Below, piece by piece: positions 3 to 34,898 of a stretch of DNA of 34,898 nucleotides. Position 1 is the stretch's first letter. The number at the start of each line of letters is the position of its first letter. The stretch is taken from IMG/VR virus record IMGVR_UViG_3300047457_000300, positions 1 through 34,898 of that record. The stretch is one strand, 5' to 3'. This DNA is from a virus. The notes beneath the pieces were generated by a model. It was not told where the DNA came from. It ran no database searches and saw only the letters and a list, made by a program, of their open reading frames with translations. The position numbers were made by a program, and so were the translations under genes.

Positions 3-1187
3 ACCCCAGACGAACTCCACAACATGCTCATCAACTGGCACGACTTCTGGCAAGGAGAACACACCACAGAAGACTGGATCGCCAAACCCCTCATCGCCCG
101 AGGCCGCCAAACCGCCCTCTTCGCAGGAGCCAAAACAGGCAAATCCTGGATCACCCTCAACATCATCGCAGCCCTCGCAACCGGCAAACCCATCCTCGGC
201 CAACCACCCCAACCACCAGTCCACACCCTCTACCTCGACTACGAAATGACCCAAGCCGACCTCATGGAACGCCTCGAACAATTCGGCTACACCGAAGACG
301 ACGACTACTCCCACCTCCACTACGCCCTCATCCCCTCGCTCCCCCCACTCAACACCTACGAAGGAGCCACAGCCCTCACCAAACTCTGCGAACTCACCAA
401 AGCCCAAGTCGTCATCATCGACACCACCGGCAGAGCCATCGAAGGCGAAGAAGACAAGGCAGACTCCTACCGAGCCTTCGCCCGCACCACAGGCCTCGCA
501 TTGAAGAAAGCTGGCATTGCCCTCGTCCGCACCGACCACGCAGGAAAGAAGGTGGGTCAGGGACAGCGTGGCTCCAGCGCAAAGAACGACGACGTAGACA
601 TCGTGTACCGCCTCGACAAGACCGACGAAGGCGTCCGGCTCGTCCGAACCCACTCACGCATCAGCTGGTGTCCCGAGAAGGTAGACCTCATCGTCGAAGA
701 CTTCAACGACATCATCACCATCCGATACAAAGCCCCCAGCAACCGAGGCTTCACCATCCAAGCCATTGACCTCGCCCGACGCCTTGACCAACTCGGCTAC
801 CCCCTCAACCTTGGGGTGAATGAGACGATCAAACTGGCCAAGGAACAGGGCATCACCCTCGGACGAAAGACCCTCGTCTCCGAGGCGATCCGATGCCGAA
901 AGCAGCCCAAACCAGACCCACTTGAGGTGGTTCCCGTCAATTCTCGGGAACCAGTGGGAACCACCCCAAAAACGGGAACCACTTGGGAACCACTTCGGGA
1001 ACCACTTGGGAACCACCTTCTAGAACCCAGCGTGCATAAGGGAACCACCCCACCCCCCTATAGGGGGGTGGTGGTTCCCATGCCCCAAAACATGGGAGAA
1101 GAAAACCTGACAAACTGGGAACCACCCACCCCAAATCAACACAAAAACGAAGAGGTGGTTCCCGACCATCTCGACCCCCTCTGGTAG
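3..1187 (+). CDS. RepA-like AAA+ ATPase (helicase half of a prim-pol/helicase), 5'-partial
   Basis: Hexameric-helicase-type ATPase of the RepA/AAA_25 family, expected to unwind DNA for replication with the prim-pol at the right edge. The first in-frame ATG is at 24 (387 residues from there), but the frame is open to the edge and the upstream codons read TPDELHN, so the true start is probably outside. Numbering from 24: Walker A GAKTGKS at 35-41, Walker B-like VVIIDTT with D133, a TDHAGK motif near 171 and the GSSAKNDDVD loop near 183. The C-terminal roughly 90 residues are low complexity (repeated GTT, EPL and GNH) because the DNA there is a repeat array. Codons up to about 480 are strongly C/A-rich, then mixed. 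Family assignment is strong; fusion to the prim-pol is inferred. Confidence 0.85.
   Translation, partial: TPDELHNMLINWHDFWQGEHTTEDWIAKPLIARGRQTALFAGAKTGKSWITLNIIAALATGKPILGQPPQPPVHTLYLDYEMTQADLMERLEQFGYTEDDDYSHLHYALIPSLPPLNTYEGATALTKLCELTKAQVVIIDTTGRAIEGEEDKADSYRAFARTTGLALKKAGIALVRTDHAGKKVGQGQRGSSAKNDDVDIVYRLDKTDEGVRLVRTHSRISWCPEKVDLIVEDFNDIITIRYKAPSNRGFTIQAIDLARRLDQLGYPLNLGVNETIKLAKEQGITLGRKTLVSEAIRCRKQPKPDPLEVVPVNSREPVGTTPKTGTTWEPLREPLGNHLLEPSVHKGTTPPPYRGVVVPMPQNMGEENLTNWEPPTPNQHKNEEVVPDHLDPLW
927..1163. repeat. Iteron-like cluster of GGGAACCAC repeats
   Basis: The 9-mer GGGAACCAC occurs directly at 956, 974, 985, 997, 1008, 1040 and 1117, with a one-base variant (GGGAACCAG) at 946. Its reverse complement GTGGTTCCC occurs at 927, 1071 and 1155. 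The central four copies start 11, 12 and 11 bases apart, about one helical turn each. The array lies in the 3' end of the helicase gene and encodes a low-complexity tail. Phased short repeats beside a replication gene are typical of initiator-binding iterons, so this is a candidate origin; that role is inference. Confidence 0.8.
1051..1070. repeat. Perfect 20-bp palindrome in the iteron cluster
   Basis: Two 10-base arms, CACCCCCCTA and TAGGGGGGTG, meet at a TATA centre. The palindrome is flanked by an iteron in each orientation (1040-1048 and 1071-1079), making a roughly 40-bp near-symmetrical structure with a 2-base asymmetry on the left. It could be extruded as a cruciform or bound by a dimer. 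It lies inside the coding sequence. Confidence 0.85.
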
Positions 1188-1616: not shown

Positions 1617-2159
1617 ATGGCAACGAAGTCAACGGGTGTGGGTCGTGGGAACAAGGCCGAGCCGGTCGAGCGTCGTCGAGCGAGGGGCGCACGGATTCGG
1701 AACGGTTTGGCTGCTGCGCCGATGCCTGGTTCAGCGTTGGCGACGGTGGACTTGGACGAACTGCCGGAGCCGCCGGTGGAGTTGGGGGATGTTGGGGCTG
1801 CGTATTGGGTGACGTATTGGGCGGCTGGTCGTCGGCATTTGTCGGAGCTGCACGACGCCCCGCTCATGACCAGGTTGTGTCGGAACTTCGACAAGATCGC
1901 CGAGTTGGAGGCGTGGCTTGGGGACGATGTGGAGCGTCGCTGGTATGTGTCTCCAAATGGGCAGGTTGTGACGCATCCGGCGGTGAAGCAGATCGAGCAG
2001 ATGGATGCTCAGAACACAGCCTGGATGTCGCTGTTGGGGTTCACGCCGAGCGACCGTGCCAGGTTGGGGTTGGCGGAGATAAGGGTTGCGAATGAGCTTG
2101 ATGCGTTCAGGAAGCGTAAGGCCAACGTGGTCGACGGCGAGGTTGTCTCAGAAGTCTGA
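1617..2159 (+). CDS. terS: Terminase small subunit
   Basis: 180 residues. It sits between HNH endonuclease and large terminase, and its architecture fits P27-type phage small terminases: a Lys/Arg-rich N-terminus, a mid-part ending in an alpha-helical AYWVTYW segment, then VTHPAVKQIEQMDAQ. The last is the HP-x-V/M motif region commonly seen in actinophage TerS. It would recognise the packaging site and recruit TerL. The ATG at 1617 is preferred over an upstream in-frame ATG at 1554 because the added 21 residues are low quality and the TANNNT box sits exactly 6 bases before 1617. Confidence 0.8.
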   Translation: MATKSTGVGRGNKAEPVERRRARGARIRNGLAAAPMPGSALATVDLDELPEPPVELGDVGAAYWVTYWAAGRRHLSELHDAPLMTRLCRNFDKIAELEAWLGDDVERRWYVSPNGQVVTHPAVKQIEQMDAQNTAWMSLLGFTPSDRARLGLAEIRVANELDAFRKRKANVVDGEVVSEV

Positions 2160-3561
2160 CGGTTTGCTGGTTGCTGATTTCGCTTCGACATTTCTGCATG
2201 TGTCAAAGGGTGTGAGGGCTGGGGAGGCGTTGGTGTTGACGGACTGGCAGCGCGAGTTGTTGGTGTCGTTGTTTGAGCGTCGTGCTGATGGGATGCTGAG
2301 GTATCGACGCAGCCTGATCGGTCTGGGCAGGAAGAATGGCAAGTCGCTTATCGGGTCGCTGATTGCGCTGTATGGGTTGATTGAGGGTGAGCCTGGGGCT
2401 GAGGTGTATTCGGCGGCTGGTGATAGGCAGCAGGCGCGGGTGGTGTTCAATGAGGCTCGCTGGCAGGTGCAGCAGTCGGCTGCGTTGTCGGGTGTGTGCA
2501 AGGTGTATCGGGATGCGATTGAGGTGCCGTCGACTGGGGCGGTGTATCGGGTGCTGTCATCTGATGCGAAACTTCAGCAAGGCCTCAACCCATCAACGGT
2601 CATCTTCGATGAGTTGCATGTTCAGCCGAACGATGACCTGTGGGATGCGTTGACGTTGGCGTCGGGTGCGAGACGCGACCCGATGATCGTGGCTATCACG
2701 ACGGCTGGGCATGACTTGGACACGATTTGTGGACGGCTCTACACCTACGGTCGGCGCATCATCGCAGGCGACCAGGACGATGAGCGGTTCGGGTTCTTCT
2801 GGTGGGAAGCACCCGAAGGCTGCGCCACCCACGATCGGGATGCTTGGCTGGCTGCGAACCCGAACCTTGCTGAGGGTTTGTTGTCATTGGAGGACATGGA
2901 GATCAGCATGAATCAGACAGCCGAGATTGCGTTCAGGCGATACCGGCTGAACCAGTGGGTAAGAACGGAAGGCGAATCCTGGTTGCCTGCCGGTGCGCTC
3001 GACCAATGCATCTCCGACCTTGAGCTGGACAAAGACCTGCCTGTCTTCGTTGGGATTGATATGGCGTTGAAGCATGACTCGATTGCGGTGGTGACGGCAC
3101 AGCCACAGCCATCAGGTCGCATTGTGTGTCGGGCAAAGATTTGGCATCCCGACGCCCATGCAATGGATGTGTCGGCTGTCGAGGCGTATTTGCGTGACTT
3201 GAATCGTGAGTGGCAGGTGATGGAGTTCGCCTATGACCCTGCGTTCTTTCAGCGTTCGGCTGAGGCGTTGACTGATGACGGGTTGAACATGGTGGAGTTC
3301 CCGCAGTCCACAGCCCGCATGGTGCCAGCGTGTGGGACGCTGTATGAGATGATCGTGAATGGCACGTTGGCTATCAATGCTGACCCGATGTTCATCGATC
3401 AGATGTTGAGTCCGGCGCAACGTCAAACCGACACGGGTTGGCGTTTATCGAAAGGTAAGTCGAAGCGCAAGATTGATGCTGCTATCGCGACGGCGTTGGC
3501 GGTTGATCGTGCGACTCGAAGGCAGGAAGTCGCCCCGACCCCTGGGTTCTTTGTAGTCTAG
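2143..3561 (+). CDS. terL: Terminase large subunit
   Basis: ATP-driven packaging motor and nuclease, Terminase_1 type, 472 residues from a TTG at 2143. Walker A-like GLGRKNGKS at 60-68, Walker B VIFDELH at 153-159, and a TTAG coupling motif near 186. The RNase H-like nuclease acidic residues are visible as VGIDMAL (D306), YDPAFF (D365) and IDAAIATALA (D445). The frame is open upstream to an ATG at 2086, but those residues overlap terS and look like a shadow translation. The TTG follows GGCGAGG and overlaps the terS stop by 17 bases. Function is certain; the start is less so. Confidence 0.95.
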   Translation: MSQKSDGLLVADFASTFLHVSKGVRAGEALVLTDWQRELLVSLFERRADGMLRYRRSLIGLGRKNGKSLIGSLIALYGLIEGEPGAEVYSAAGDRQQARVVFNEARWQVQQSAALSGVCKVYRDAIEVPSTGAVYRVLSSDAKLQQGLNPSTVIFDELHVQPNDDLWDALTLASGARRDPMIVAITTAGHDLDTICGRLYTYGRRIIAGDQDDERFGFFWWEAPEGCATHDRDAWLAANPNLAEGLLSLEDMEISMNQTAEIAFRRYRLNQWVRTEGESWLPAGALDQCISDLELDKDLPVFVGIDMALKHDSIAVVTAQPQPSGRIVCRAKIWHPDAHAMDVSAVEAYLRDLNREWQVMEFAYDPAFFQRSAEALTDDGLNMVEFPQSTARMVPACGTLYEMIVNGTLAINADPMFIDQMLSPAQRQTDTGWRLSKGKSKRKIDAAIATALAVDRATRRQEVAPTPGFFVV

Positions 3562-19529: not shown

Positions 19530-20411
19530 ATGACGCTTCGTTGGGATCAACGATCACGGGTTGGTAGTTATGTGAACTACTGGAACAATCCTGCATCACA
19601 GGGAATCACGGTTGAGTATTTGGTTGTTGCTGGTGGTGGTTCTGGTGGTGCAGACCTGGCTGGTGGTGGTGGTGCTGGTGGCTATCGAACTGGCACAATG
19701 CTTCTTTCTATCGGAACGACATCGGTCACGGTTGGTGCTGGAGGAAACGCCGTAACTGGTGCGACCGGAGGAAACAAAGGTTCTGATTCCGTTCTAGGTA
19801 GTATCACCTCGACTGGTGGTGGTGCTGGTAAGGGTGCTGGAAACACGGGTAGCGGTGGAACTACTGGTGGTTCTGGTGGTGGTGGTAGCGCACAGTCTTC
19901 AGGTCTTGCTGGTAACACCCCAAGCACAACACCATCGCAAGGTAATGATGGTGGTTCTGGTGGTGCGAGCAATGGTTCGGGTGGTGGTGGCGGTGGTGCT
20001 TCGGCTGCTGGTTCTAATGGTTCTTCTGGCACGAGTGGTGCTGGCGGTGCTGGTGGTGCTGGTATTGCAAGCACGATCACGGGTACTTCTGTGACGCGTG
20101 GTGGTGGCGGTGGTGGTGGCTGTTGGGCTGGTAGTGCTGCTGGTGGTGCCGGTGGTGGTGGTGCTGGTGGTTCTGGTTCTGGTGTTGCTGGTGCTGCTGG
20201 TAGCGCAAATACTGGTGGTGGTGGTGGAGGCGGTTCACCGTATAACGGTGGTGGTGGTGCTGGCGGTTCGGGGATTGTGGTTGTGGCCTACCCAACAGTT
20301 CTTCTTACTCAGACTGGTCGAAGCGTGACTGGTGGAACGATCACGACCGCTAATGGGATGACGATTCACAGTTTCACTTCAACTGGTTCAAGCAGCCTGG
20401 TGGTGAGCTGA
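19530..20411 (+). CDS. Gly-rich fibre-tip protein, copy 1
   Basis: 293 residues. After a short N-terminal RSRVGSYVNYW segment comes EYLVVAGGGSGG, then long tracts of Gly with Ala/Ser, ending in GGSGIVVVAYP and a Thr/Ser-rich beta tail. Such poly-Gly blocks are known to form polyglycine-II sandwiches in phage adhesins (e.g. gp38-type tips), with receptor-contact loops between strands. The copy downstream is a paralogue. The underlying DNA is a GGT-rich simple repeat, prone to recombination. Confidence 0.8.
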   Translation: MTLRWDQRSRVGSYVNYWNNPASQGITVEYLVVAGGGSGGADLAGGGGAGGYRTGTMLLSIGTTSVTVGAGGNAVTGATGGNKGSDSVLGSITSTGGGAGKGAGNTGSGGTTGGSGGGGSAQSSGLAGNTPSTTPSQGNDGGSGGASNGSGGGGGGASAAGSNGSSGTSGAGGAGGAGIASTITGTSVTRGGGGGGGCWAGSAAGGAGGGGAGGSGSGVAGAAGSANTGGGGGGGSPYNGGGGAGGSGIVVVAYPTVLLTQTGRSVTGGTITTANGMTIHSFTSTGSSSLVVS

Positions 20412-21193
20412 TGGGTGCGAATTATGGGAAGCGCGCTCGAGTCAGCACTTATGTCGGCAAGTGGCTGGGGAACGGTCTTGTCAATCCGCCAACGTCGCTT
20501 GAGTATTTGGTGATCGCTGGTGGTGGTACTGGCGGATATAACGGTGGCGGTGGTGGTGCTGGCGGTTACAGGTCATCGGTTGTTGGCGAGTCATCTGGTG
20601 GTGGCGCATCTGCTGAATCAAAACTGACAGTCTCCGCAGGTTCTTCATATACCGTGACCGTTGGTGCTGGTGGCTCTAACTTCCCGTCAACAAATGGAAA
20701 CAACTCTGTTCTAGGAAGCATCACTTCAACTGGTGGTGGCGAGGGAGGCAAGGAAGGTTCAACCAGTGGAAAGACTGGCGGTTCTGGTGGTGGTGCAGCG
20801 GTTGGTGGGTCTGCCGGTTCGGGTACAGCGAATCAGGGCTATGCGGGTGGTAGCGCGATCGGTGCTGGTGGTGGTGCAGGATCAGCCGCATCAGGTGGAA
20901 CGGTTGGTGCTGGTGTCTCGTCAAGCATTACTGGGTCTGCTGTGACTCGAGCTGTCGGTGGTGGGAACTCTGGTAGCGGTGCTGCTGGAGCAAACACCGG
21001 TAGCGGTGGCGGTGGCGGAAACTCAGGCAACACGTGGGGTGGTGTTGGCGGTTCAGGAATTGTTGTGTTCCGCTATCCGGACACACAAGCAGACATCACC
21101 ACTATCGGCGCAGGACTCACCTACACCAAGACCACCTCTGGTGGCTACAAGATATACACATTCACCGCTGGCACCGACACCATTACGATCTAA
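20411..21193 (+). CDS. Gly-rich fibre-tip protein, copy 2
   Basis: 260 residues, overlapping copy 1 by one base (TGATG). It shares the order of blocks: RARVSTYVGKW, EYLVIAGGGTGG, TVTVGAGG, SVLGSITSTGGG, SSITGSAVTRAVGGG, GGSGIVVFRYP. The Gly tracts are shorter and intervening loops (e.g. SSVVGESSGGGASAESK) differ, as expected of duplicated receptor-binding tips that have diverged. Confidence 0.8.
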   Translation: MGANYGKRARVSTYVGKWLGNGLVNPPTSLEYLVIAGGGTGGYNGGGGGAGGYRSSVVGESSGGGASAESKLTVSAGSSYTVTVGAGGSNFPSTNGNNSVLGSITSTGGGEGGKEGSTSGKTGGSGGGAAVGGSAGSGTANQGYAGGSAIGAGGGAGSAASGGTVGAGVSSSITGSAVTRAVGGGNSGSGAAGANTGSGGGGGNSGNTWGGVGGSGIVVFRYPDTQADITTIGAGLTYTKTTSGGYKIYTFTAGTDTITI

Positions 21194-30722: not shown

Positions 30723-30946
30723 TCTGGCTCATCCTGTATCTCGCTTGCGTCATCTACACATTCCCGAAAGCCGTCAAAGTGATACTCAAAGACAATGCCG
30801 AACACGGCTACCAAGAAGCTCCTGATTATCTACTATCGGCGATACTTGCAATCGCAATCAGCGTCCTCTTCCCTGTCTGCATCGTCGCATACCTCATGTA
30901 CCGATACGTCAAACGGGTCGAGAAGAAGATTGACGCATCATCATGA
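30719..30946 (+). CDS. Two-TM membrane protein
   Basis: 75 residues from GTG 30719 (GTGA overlap). Hydrophobic N-terminus (WLILYLACVIYTF) and a second segment (LLSAILAIAISVLFPVCIVAYLMY), then a basic tail (KRVEKK). Function unknown. Confidence 0.55.
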   Translation: MIWLILYLACVIYTFPKAVKVILKDNAEHGYQEAPDYLLSAILAIAISVLFPVCIVAYLMYRYVKRVEKKIDASS

Positions 30947-32475
30947 GCCGTTGGAAACTTCTGCACGGCGACTGCCGCGACCAACTCGCCACCATCCCCG
31001 ACAACAGCATCGACGCTATCGTCACCGACCCACCCTACGAACTGGGATTCATGGGCAAATCTTGGGATGCGTCGGGGATCGCCTACAACCCGACCGTCTG
31101 GACAGAATGCTTACGTGTACTCAAACCAGGCGGCCATCTCCTCGCCTTCTCCGGCTCACGCACCTACCACCGCATGGCCGTCGCCATCGAGGATGCGGGC
31201 TTCCAGATACGCGACCAAATCATGTGGGTCTATGGTTCAGGGTTCCCGAAGTCGCTGGACATCAGCAAAGCGATCGACAAGTCTGATGCGGCTGAGGAGC
31301 AACGTCAGAGGCGATTCCGTTTCACCGCTTGGGTGCGTTCGACCGGTTTGACTGCGAAGCAAATTGATGAAGCAACTCAAACAATGATGGGCAGCCACTA
31401 CACAACCCATCCAACTCAGCCAGCGATTATGACGACGGAGCATCTTGACGCTGTTCGACATTTGATTGGTGATGTGCCTGATTGGGTTGAGCAGGAGTCT
31501 CGGATTCGTAGTGTCGAGTCGAAGAACTTTGCGTCACGCGAGGTGATTGGATCAAAGAAGCTTCCAGACGCAAAAGTTGTTCGACTTGGATTTGTGGGCG
31601 AAACTTACAATGGGGATTTGGCTGGAGCAATGCGCGATATTCCAGTGACCGCCCCCGCAACGGCTGAGGCTGAAGTGTGGGAGGGTTGGGGTACGGCGTT
31701 GAAGCCGGCGCATGAGCCGATTGTGTTGGCTCGTAAGCCGTTGGTGGGGACGGTTGCGGAGAATGTGTTGCGGTTCGGTGTCGGCGGGTTGAACATTGAC
31801 GGCTGTCGAGTTGCGACTGATGAGAAGTTTGTTGATTTGCCCAATCGGGCTTGGGTGAATGCTGATGGGTTGAGTTATGCGGAAAGCAACCACAATCATC
31901 GGGACGGTTCTAATGCAGTGGCTGTGGAGAAGTTGAATAATCTTGGTCGTTGGCCTGCGAATCTGATTCATGACGGCTCCGACGAAATACTCGAACTGTT
32001 CCCAGAAACAAAAACATGGGCTGCCAAACAACCAGGCAAATACGAAACCGACTCCATCTTCGGGGTCGGCGGAAGGAACTTCGCCCCAGCCAATTCAGGT
32101 TCAGCTGCCCGTTTCTTCTATTGTGCGAAAGCCAGCAAAAAAGACCGCAACGAAGGACTCGACCATCTCACCCCACAACGCGAATTCGACCGAACCTCCG
32201 ACAACCTCCCAGGCGGAGACAACCCACGCAACCGAACCAACACCCCACGCCTCAACCACCACCCAACCGTGAAACCAACCGAACTGATGCGCTACCTCTG
32301 CCGACTCATCACACCCCCCAACGGTGTCATCCTCGACCCATTCACCGGCTCAGGATCAACCGGCAAAGCCGCCATCCTCGAACACTTCCAATTCATCGGC
32401 ATCGAACAAGACCCCGACTACATCACCATCGCCCAAGCCAGAATCCAACACGCAGAACAGGAAACCCAACCATGA
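30943..32475 (+). CDS. DNA methyltransferase (beta-class)
   Basis: 510 residues. Motif IV DPPY at 29-32 precedes motif I DPFTGSGSTG from 465, the beta-class order for N4-cytosine or N6-adenine methylation. About 430 residues lie between them, including a target-recognition-like insert (about 105-215: FTAWVRSTGLTAKQIDEAT, HLDAVRHLIGDVPDWV). Codon bias flips from C/A-rich to G/T-rich near 31230 and back near 31970, matching the central part. Likely protects phage DNA from restriction. ATGA overlap with the upstream gene. Confidence 0.92.
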   Translation: MSRWKLLHGDCRDQLATIPDNSIDAIVTDPPYELGFMGKSWDASGIAYNPTVWTECLRVLKPGGHLLAFSGSRTYHRMAVAIEDAGFQIRDQIMWVYGSGFPKSLDISKAIDKSDAAEEQRQRRFRFTAWVRSTGLTAKQIDEATQTMMGSHYTTHPTQPAIMTTEHLDAVRHLIGDVPDWVEQESRIRSVESKNFASREVIGSKKLPDAKVVRLGFVGETYNGDLAGAMRDIPVTAPATAEAEVWEGWGTALKPAHEPIVLARKPLVGTVAENVLRFGVGGLNIDGCRVATDEKFVDLPNRAWVNADGLSYAESNHNHRDGSNAVAVEKLNNLGRWPANLIHDGSDEILELFPETKTWAAKQPGKYETDSIFGVGGRNFAPANSGSAARFFYCAKASKKDRNEGLDHLTPQREFDRTSDNLPGGDNPRNRTNTPRLNHHPTVKPTELMRYLCRLITPPNGVILDPFTGSGSTGKAAILEHFQFIGIEQDPDYITIAQARIQHAEQETQP

Positions 32476-32979: not shown

Positions 32980-33216
32980 ATGAGAAAAAAACTCAAATAC
33001 TTCCCCGTACAACCGTTGCTCGCACTCTTCCCCGACGGTATGGGTGACCGAGTAATCGGTGAACACTTCGGAGTATCACGCACCATCATTCACCGCTGGC
33101 GACACAACCCCACATGCGCCATCGACGAATACACCGCCGACCGCTACGCAATCAAAATGGGAATGCACCCACTAGAAATCTGGCCAAACTGGATCAGCAT
33201 GGAGGAAACAGCATGA
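32980..33216 (+). CDS. HTH DNA-binding protein
   Basis: 78 residues after AAAGGAGG. DRVIGEHFGVSRTIIHRWRHNP is a helix-turn-helix (recognition helix SRTIIHRWR), and HPLEIWPNW closes the fold. Pattern resembles small phage transcriptional regulators. Coupled to the next methyltransferase by ATGA. Confidence 0.72.
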   Translation: MRKKLKYFPVQPLLALFPDGMGDRVIGEHFGVSRTIIHRWRHNPTCAIDEYTADRYAIKMGMHPLEIWPNWISMEETA

Positions 33217-34289
33217 TTCTCATCGGCGACAACCGGCAAACACTCGCAACCATCCCCGATCAATCAATCCAATGCTGCGTCACCAGCCCCCCATACTGGG
33301 GTCTGCGCGACTACGGAACCGCAACATGGGACGGTGGCGACCCGTCATGTGACCATCAAGGGAAACCAATGGCAACCCGAGCCAACGTCAACAAGAACAC
33401 CGGTACCGGCAACGATGTCAAAAATACTGAAGTTAGGGAGTTCTACAAGGACATCTGCGGTAAGTGTGGAGCGAAACGAATCGACTCCCAGATCGGTCTA
33501 GAACAAACACCAGACGAATACGTTGAGCAAATGGTCGCAGTATTCCGGCAAGTTCACCGTGTCTTGCGTGACGATGGGACACTCTGGCTCAATCTTGGAG
33601 ACAGCTATGCGGGCAACACGTCACGCGCATCAAACAACGGCAGAGCTGGGTTCGGTAACGAACGTGAAGGTGTATTCACCAAGACTGGTGACGGACTCAA
33701 AAACAAAGACCTCGTAGGCATCCCCTGGCGTGTCGCATTCGCACTACAAGCAGACGGCTGGTACCTGCGCCAAGACATTATCTGGCACAAACCAAACCCG
33801 ATGCCCGAATCAGTCACAGACCGATGCACCAAAGCACACGAATACATTTTCCTGCTCAGCAAATCAGCGAAATATTACTTCGATCACGAAGCAATCAAAG
33901 AAGAAGCCAAAACTCCTCCAGCAGTTAGAGACAAACATGGCGAAGGGTACCAAGCTGACTACGCCAAAGGAGACAGATTCTCTGCTGGTGAACGCACATG
34001 GGGTGCTGACGGTCGAAAGAACAAACGCTCCGTCTGGACTGTCACAACACGACCATTCAAAGGCGCACACTTCGCAACATTCCCGCCACAACTCATCGAA
34101 CCGTGCATCCTCGCAGGAAGCAAACCAGGCGACACCATCCTCGACCCGTTCTTCGGTGCAGGAACAACAGGACTCGTCGCACAAAGACACAACCGCAAAT
34201 GGATCGGCTGCGAACTCAACCCCGACTACGCTGCCATCGCACAACAACGCCTAAACGAAGAAACCAACCTCTTCACCAATCTCAGCTAA
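33213..34289 (+). CDS. Second DNA methyltransferase (beta-class, TSPPYWG)
   Basis: 358 residues. Motif IV TSPPYWGLRDYG at 24-35 and motif I DPFFGAGTTG from 311 give the beta order; SPPY is typical of N4-cytosine or some N6-adenine enzymes. A CDH...CGKCG cluster (about 46-95) suggests a zinc ribbon in the target-recognition part. The frame is open upstream to ATG 33114, but ATG 33213 with the ATGA overlap is correct. Together with the first enzyme it implies dense modification of the phage genome. Confidence 0.92.
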   Translation: MILIGDNRQTLATIPDQSIQCCVTSPPYWGLRDYGTATWDGGDPSCDHQGKPMATRANVNKNTGTGNDVKNTEVREFYKDICGKCGAKRIDSQIGLEQTPDEYVEQMVAVFRQVHRVLRDDGTLWLNLGDSYAGNTSRASNNGRAGFGNEREGVFTKTGDGLKNKDLVGIPWRVAFALQADGWYLRQDIIWHKPNPMPESVTDRCTKAHEYIFLLSKSAKYYFDHEAIKEEAKTPPAVRDKHGEGYQADYAKGDRFSAGERTWGADGRKNKRSVWTVTTRPFKGAHFATFPPQLIEPCILAGSKPGDTILDPFFGAGTTGLVAQRHNRKWIGCELNPDYAAIAQQRLNEETNLFTNLS

Positions 34290-34305: not shown

Positions 34306-34898
34306 ATGACCAACAGAATGCTCCAAGCCGCCCTCGGCTACGCCCAACTCGGCATCCGAGTCATCCCCATCAAACCAGGCATGAAATACCCGCCAATCAA
34401 CGAATGGCAGAACCAAGCCACCACCAACCCCGACACCATCACCGAATGGTGGACAGACACCTATCACGGCTACGGCATCGGCATCGCCACCGGACGCACC
34501 CGCAACGGCCACATCTTCGTCCTCGACGTAGACGACAGAGACGAATACAAAGGCTCCGATACTCTCCACGACCTCGAACAAACCTACGGACAACTCCCCG
34601 AAACCGTCGAAGCCACCACCGGCACAGGCGGACGCCACCTCTACTACTACAGCCCCACCGAAATCCGAAACAACGCAGGCACACGCCTCGGCAAAGGACT
34701 CGACATCAGAGGCGAAGGAGGCCAAGTCCTCGCCGACCCAACCCTCCACCCAAACGGACGCCCCTACACCTGGAACATCGGACAATCCCCACACGACCGC
34801 AAACCAGCCCACGCCCCCAACTGGCTCATCCAACTCCTCACCAAACAACCTGAACCCATCAAACCACCCACCACCCCCGACACCTTCCTCAACGACCC
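34306..34898 (+). CDS. Bifunctional primase/polymerase N-terminal domain, 3'-partial
   Basis: 197 residues to the edge. The prim-pol (AEP) fold is clear: LGIRVIPIKPGMKYP at the N-terminus, VLDVDD (D74, D76, metal site), TGTGGRHLYYY (H111) and GLDIRGEGGQVLADP (R135). It synthesises primers, and possibly longer strands, in a phage with no DNA polymerase gene. In relatives this domain is followed in the same protein by a linker and the AAA+ helicase that opens this window, so the two are probably the ends of one gene. Confidence 0.9.
   Translation, partial: MTNRMLQAALGYAQLGIRVIPIKPGMKYPPINEWQNQATTNPDTITEWWTDTYHGYGIGIATGRTRNGHIFVLDVDDRDEYKGSDTLHDLEQTYGQLPETVEATTGTGGRHLYYYSPTEIRNNAGTRLGKGLDIRGEGGQVLADPTLHPNGRPYTWNIGQSPHDRKPAHAPNWLIQLLTKQPEPIKPPTTPDTFLND

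Follow-up and report, generated by a model that had tools for sequence, protein, structure and literature searches.

The window analysed here is the whole 34,898-nt viral record IMGVR_UViG_3300047457_000300 of IMG/VR, the contig of an uncultivated phage. It carries a module of short repeats (iterons) and a hairpin at positions 927–1163, a candidate replication origin, within the 3' end of a gene encoding a fused primase-polymerase (prim-pol) and helicase. The 3' part of this gene (3–1187, + strand) encoded a RepA-type hexameric helicase (Pfam AAA_25, 2.9e-21) with a C-terminal domain of three helices, and the module lies in the codons of its low-complexity tail. The 5' part, a Prim-Pol domain (PF09250; Pfam 9.9e-44), was located at 34306–34896 on the + strand and ran off the contig end. 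Both pieces belong to one open reading frame (ORF) split by the contig ends: they corresponded to residues 66–262 and 374–770 of a single ORF in the relative L013, in which the gene is intact. The prim-pol piece was 98% identical to L013 over 197 amino acids, and approximately 111 codons (approximately 330 nt) were absent between the contig ends. The initial annotation had assigned the phage its own prim-pol and helicase but no polymerase. Both enzymes were found, but in one gene, and family A polymerase and Pol III alpha were not found in the record. The cut inside this gene (34898/1) may mean that the contig is a nearly complete genome, arbitrarily opened.

The profile of the window helicase had RSF1010 RepA (1g8y) as its sole PDB match (E 5.9e-4), and its predicted fold was KaiC/RecA-like. 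A related phage helicase, L036, matched IncQ-type 'helicase RepA family' plasmid proteins (E 2e-7). The helicase core was followed by a domain of approximately 60 residues with three predicted helices (about residues 242–308; codons at 726–926, + strand), which was hypervariable, and then by the tail encoding the iterons.

The array at 927–1163 comprised ten exact copies of the 9-mer GGGAACCAC and one variant, GGGAACCAG (946–954, + strand), confirming the eleven copies in both orientations within about 240 bases that had been annotated. Exact copies were located on the + strand at 956–964, 974–982, 985–993, 997–1005, 1008–1016, 1040–1048 and 1117–1125, and on the − strand at 927–935, 1071–1079 and 1155–1163. 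The copy at 974 opened a set of four phased copies with start-to-start spacings of 11, 12 and 11 nt, matching the 11–12 bases described initially. No exact copy of GGGAACCAC was present elsewhere in the record, with 0.46 copies expected by chance per window and 0.003 per 237 nt. The top count of any 9-mer per 240 nt was 10 in the window, compared with 2–3 in 20 first-order simulated windows. Relative to the helicase ORF, every reading frame and both orientations were represented among the copies, and their annotated position inside the 3' end of the helicase gene held. Between the phased copies and the hairpin was a spacer (1017–1039, + strand) that, when modules were aligned on the hairpin centre, was conserved in length and partly in sequence (..GAACCC......AAG). 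The AT content at 1080–1159 was 0.53, against a mean of 0.44; this mild rise 3' of the hairpin was likewise observed in several relatives.

The hairpin unit (1040–1079) consisted of the iteron at 1040–1048, a perfect palindrome of 22 bp at 1050–1071 (CCACCCCCCTATAGGGGGGTGG, with a C6-TATA-G6 core) and the inverted iteron at 1071–1079. The initial annotation had placed a perfect palindrome of 20 bp at 1051–1070, symmetrically flanked by inverted copies; the palindrome and the inverted copies stand, but the size and coordinates had to be revised, and the inverted iterons are offset by 2 nt rather than symmetrical. Together, the palindrome and the two inverted iterons form a large imperfect hairpin with one 2-nt bulge. 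DNA folding of this unit gave about −19.6 kcal/mol (z about −4.8) on either strand. Among 28 distinct hairpins in relatives, the seven inner pairs were 100% Watson-Crick although the letters varied, and 207 of 224 pairs formed, compared with a maximum of 133 in shuffles. Many of the loops had the sequence GTA or GAA, enclosed by C and G, and were not self-complementary. GNA loops between C and G give unusually stable DNA mini-hairpins. Since these loops are not symmetric, a folded strand is favoured over a palindrome that binds a dimer. The hairpin stems of L304–L334 were rich in GTG/CAC (GTGTGTGAC-GTA-GTCACACAC), and GTG/CAC motifs also occur in the pRN1 stem-loop.

The close relatives L009–L015 retained the module, and the palindrome was invariant in all eight aligned sequences. 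In L014, 23 nt comprising two iteron units were missing, which frameshifted the tail and ended it early, while the remaining iterons and the palindrome were kept; the deletion could reflect a collapsed assembly repeat. Iterons and spacers differed only weakly in conservation among the close relatives (p = 0.02) because of indels, and the reading frames, the covariation in the hairpin and the distant relatives are stronger tests. When distant relatives were aligned on the hairpin centre, they had the same order: direct iterons, a spacer in which AAG follows a GAACCC-like stretch, an iteron, the hairpin and an inverted iteron. The iterons themselves were clade-specific (GGGAACCAC, GGAACCAC, GGGTACC, GAACCGCC, GGGGACAC, AGACAC, CTGACGCA and CGCGACGTCG). 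In L304–L334 the gene stopped right after the C-terminal domain, the module was intergenic and the protein had no tail, which shows that the tail is dispensable. The module was also intergenic in L036 and L135, and in 53 of 80 loci (near-duplicates included) the 3' end of the helicase gene held the most repeat-rich 240 nt. According to the initial annotation, loss of the repeats alongside a conserved tail would have spoken against an origin. The opposite was observed: repeats and palindrome were kept where the tail was lost (L304–L334) or frameshifted (L014). On this reading, the tail is encoded only because the ORF continues across the proposed origin. Nucleotide BLAST of the module region against named phages gave no match, and neither did a scan of the genome collection with the window helicase. 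Helicase ORFs running through the module often ended in a short acidic/aromatic tip (LDPLW, TDDIW, EDIW, DDDLF, LDLFGN or DDIQF), seen at 1170–1187 of the window and in L258, L263, L016, L018, L019, L081 and L109, and absent from the tailless clade; it resembles an SSB tail or clamp-binding motif.

A search of IMG/VR for two close copies of GGGAACCAC returned at least 118 loci. Of the 118 loci listed, 24 had a cluster of four or more copies, in mixed orientation, within 350 nt, whereas the reversed 9-mer, used as a control in a complete IMG/VR scan, gave 74 loci, none of them (0/74) with mixed-orientation clusters. Where the ORF adjoining the GGGAACCAC clusters could be identified, it encoded in most cases an AAA_25 helicase, frequently together with Prim-Pol, and once a DnaB-like one; the fragments L022, L196, L059 and L063 had no Pfam matches. 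The IMG/VR scan for the 9-mer led to unrelated helicases of the AAA_25, prim-pol and DnaB types. The same layout with other iterons was found in Streptomyces phage mu1/6 (ACCTGCCC), Microcystis phage MinS1 (CCTCGTCC), Streptomyces phage Dagobah (GAACCGGT), Arthrobacter phage Karkharias (AGTGACAC), Streptococcus phage Javan273 and plasmid III of Candidatus Promineifilum breve. A literature search restricted to open-licence papers did not find the module described. Plasmids with a prim-pol and a DUF3631 protein were set aside, as their helicase is different. Some unrelated genes (L046, L089, L025 and L211) also contained GGGAACCAC, there within in-frame coding repeats of 18 nt; such one-orientation coding arrays are not origins, and surveys must filter them out. 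In a few cases (L339, L428 and L430, from HunterDalle, phi673 and EmiRose), DNA polymerase I was encoded and the module was absent beside the RepA-like helicase gene.

Everywhere compared, the C-terminal domain was far more variable than the helicase core. L300 and L270 were 98% identical in the core and 33% in the C-terminal domain, and L300 had GGGACA-type iterons instead of GGGTACC/GGGAACC, with the same hairpin stem and loop as L270. At the DNA level, compared against L273 (nearly identical to L270 but with longer flanks available), the identity of L300 dropped from approximately 85% to 42–52% over the stretch of C-terminal domain and iterons and was approximately 79% beyond it. Same-iteron-class pairs with a core identity of at least 93% had C-terminal domains that were 57–93% identical. 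Iterons and C-terminal domain were thus exchanged together in L300, as a lock-and-key relationship predicts. Across 97 pairs with a core identity of at least 75%, a shared iteron class was associated with 19 points more C-terminal-domain identity than the core predicts, a value reached by 0 of 5000 label shuffles, although these ignore relatedness and L300 contributes many of the pairs. When other phages carrying the C-terminal domain of L300 were sought, L300's own contig was the only one returned. Based on these comparisons, the C-terminal domain of the helicase is the likely reader of the iterons.

Taken together, the evidence, all of it comparative, makes it very probable that 927–1163 is the replication origin of the phage. 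The self-contained initiator-origin pair proposed initially gained support from the comparison, in which the link to the replication helicase held across many phages. We propose that the prim-pol/RepA-type helicase would bind the phased iterons via its small C-terminal helical domain, and that the bound multimer would open adjacent DNA and load the hexameric helicase, exposing the hairpin at 1040–1079 as a single strand. The fused prim-pol or the helicase core could then start a primer at the hairpin, to be extended by a host polymerase in an RSF1010-like manner. Whether the hairpin is indeed the priming site is evenly balanced in our judgement. More broadly, and with some reserve, phages may widely use an RSF1010 system in a single polypeptide, in which the C-terminal domain reads the iterons, the RepA-like core unwinds and the prim-pol starts chains at the conserved hairpin, with an exchangeable cassette of C-terminal domain and iterons and a fixed hairpin.

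Several observations weigh against this interpretation. The iterons of L016 and L017 differ, yet their C-terminal domains are 63% identical, like those of same-iteron pairs; the coupling is therefore carried chiefly by L300 together with the L309/L332 group. The structural model of the C-terminal domain was of middling confidence, and its homeodomain-like matches (Z 2.0–2.4, Foldseek E > 3) were weak and were left out of the class assignment. The phages HunterDalle, phi673, EmiRose, HerculesXL and Dulem virus 38 have RepA-like helicases without the module, and a clear AT-rich unwinding element was not found at the module, where AT content rises only mildly 3' of the hairpin. Cumulative GC skew, proposed as a check in the initial annotation, gave a divided answer: the minimum was approximately 0.5 kb from the module in three phages of this family (the window, G001 and G002), but not near it in mu1/6, G003, G004 and G006. 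Because the window, G001 and G002 share one genome plan and the skew at fourfold sites changes gene by gene, skew was not used as evidence.

The origin could be as proposed while a different protein, from the phage or the host, binds its iterons as a separate RepC- or O-like initiator and recruits the helicase. RSF1010 uses such a separate RepC (PMC4234260), the same GGGAACCAC beside unrelated helicases is what a shared binder would leave, and the C-terminal domain of L016/L017 does not follow the iteron change. The L300 switch, however, ties the iterons to the C-terminal domain, and the RepC family (PF06504) gave no match in the record, in a search that had no working positive control. We regard a separate binder as rather unlikely. 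That the iterons are a low-complexity peptide repeat and nothing more is highly improbable. They do lie inside an ORF, and true 18-nt coding repeats with GGGAACCAC exist elsewhere (L046, L089 and L211), but the use of three frames and both orientations, the intergenic module of L304–L334, L036 and L135 and the frameshifted tail of L014 exclude a peptide repeat, and the covariation in the hairpin is also against it.

The neighbouring genes raise the question of whether the module serves the terminase, whose genes follow it, as a packaging signal (pac or cos binding sites). In the window, 391 bp separate the module from terS. This interval contains an HNH endonuclease gene (1194–1499, + strand; PHROGs HNH 1.8e-5), which adjoins the module and is not considered an element of the origin; TerS (1554–2159) and TerL (2086–3561), both matching Pfam terminases, follow. 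TerL was approximately 1.1 kb from the module in the relatives L013 and L312. The module, however, tracks the helicase: TerL was 2.6 kb away in L036, 3.9 kb in L045, 4.6 kb in mu1/6 and approximately 6 kb in both MinS1 and G005; in Karkharias, whose genome is linear, it was at the far end. A pac or cos feature would hold a fixed position relative to the terminase genes, whereas the distance to TerL ranged from approximately 1.1 to more than 6 kb. The iterons, moreover, change along with the C-terminal domain of the helicase. A packaging site is unlikely. Control of the late operon, by an operator or a transcription terminator, would suit the position of the module between replication and structural genes and the strength of the hairpin. 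Yet no T-run, promoter-like site or terminator-like site was found at the hairpin, and the neighbouring genes vary among other phages while the helicase is constant, which leaves this explanation with very little probability.

Elsewhere in the window, a second G/C-rich inverted repeat (ACCCCCCACC..GGGGGGTGGGT) was located at 1499–1527, after the HNH gene and before terS. It was largely kept in relatives and may be a terminator or packaging element. Dense coding repeats of the CCACCAGAACCACCA type at 19530–21193 encoded a low-complexity protein, probably a tail or fibre protein. Two N6/N4 DNA methylase genes (30943–32475 and 33114–34289) were located directly upstream of the prim-pol gene.

The reading as a replication origin provides a predicted origin for many cultivated and uncultivated phages with prim-pol/RepA-like helicases, which annotation misses because it sits in coding sequence. 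With a fast-changing reader and iterons on one side and a hairpin conserved in structure on the other, the initiator and primase roles can be tested separately, and the modules could serve as minimal replicons for actinobacterial hosts.

Of the known systems, the oriV of RSF1010 (IncQ) shares a RepA-type helicase, an AEP-superfamily primase, iterons and an ssi-like hairpin with the window (PMC4234260, PMC4538821). In RSF1010, iterons are bound by RepC, unwinding is performed by RepA and priming by RepB' at ssi stem-loops (PMC4234260). In contrast, primase and helicase are fused in the window, the origin is in or right after the gene itself, each module has one hairpin instead of two (ssiA and ssiB), and the RepC family (PF06504) gave no match in the record, in a search whose control gave none either. 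In SaPI/SCCmec Cch2, the gene of the initiator helicase is immediately followed by iterons, to which the helicase C-terminal domain binds (PMC7581432). The phage iterons are likewise directly 3' of the helicase gene, with C-terminal-domain binding predicted from the coupled exchange in L300, but the SaPI/Cch2 helicases are D5-type or DUF927, while the window helicase matched Pfam AAA_25 alone, is RecA-like and has a different small C-terminal domain; the conserved hairpin is a further difference. The pRN1 protein ORF904 is a prim-pol-helicase whose origin requires a stem-loop just 3' of the gene, conserved in structure and variable in sequence (PMC4234260). The phage system resembles it in the fusion of prim-pol to helicase (a single ORF in L013 and L112), in the C-terminal domain (DNA-binding in pRN1, a candidate here) and in a stem-loop 3' of the gene that is conserved in structure (pairing was kept in 28 hairpins). 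ORF904, however, has an SF3 helicase, against the AAA_25/RecA-like helicase of the window, and its stem-loop is roughly 100 nt long and without iterons. P4 alpha is also a multifunctional initiator-helicase that binds repeats, with an unrelated initiator (PMC4234260). Iteron origins in general have phased direct repeats beside the gene of their initiator, as found here. In phage lambda (O/oriLambda), iterons lie within the coding sequence of the initiator itself, as they do in that of the proposed initiator of the window. The lambda initiator is unrelated, and the AT-rich element of lambda has no clear counterpart in the window. The window system combines features of RSF1010, SaPI/Cch2 and pRN1 and belongs to none of them; because it lacks one defining feature of each, it was not classed as a member of any.
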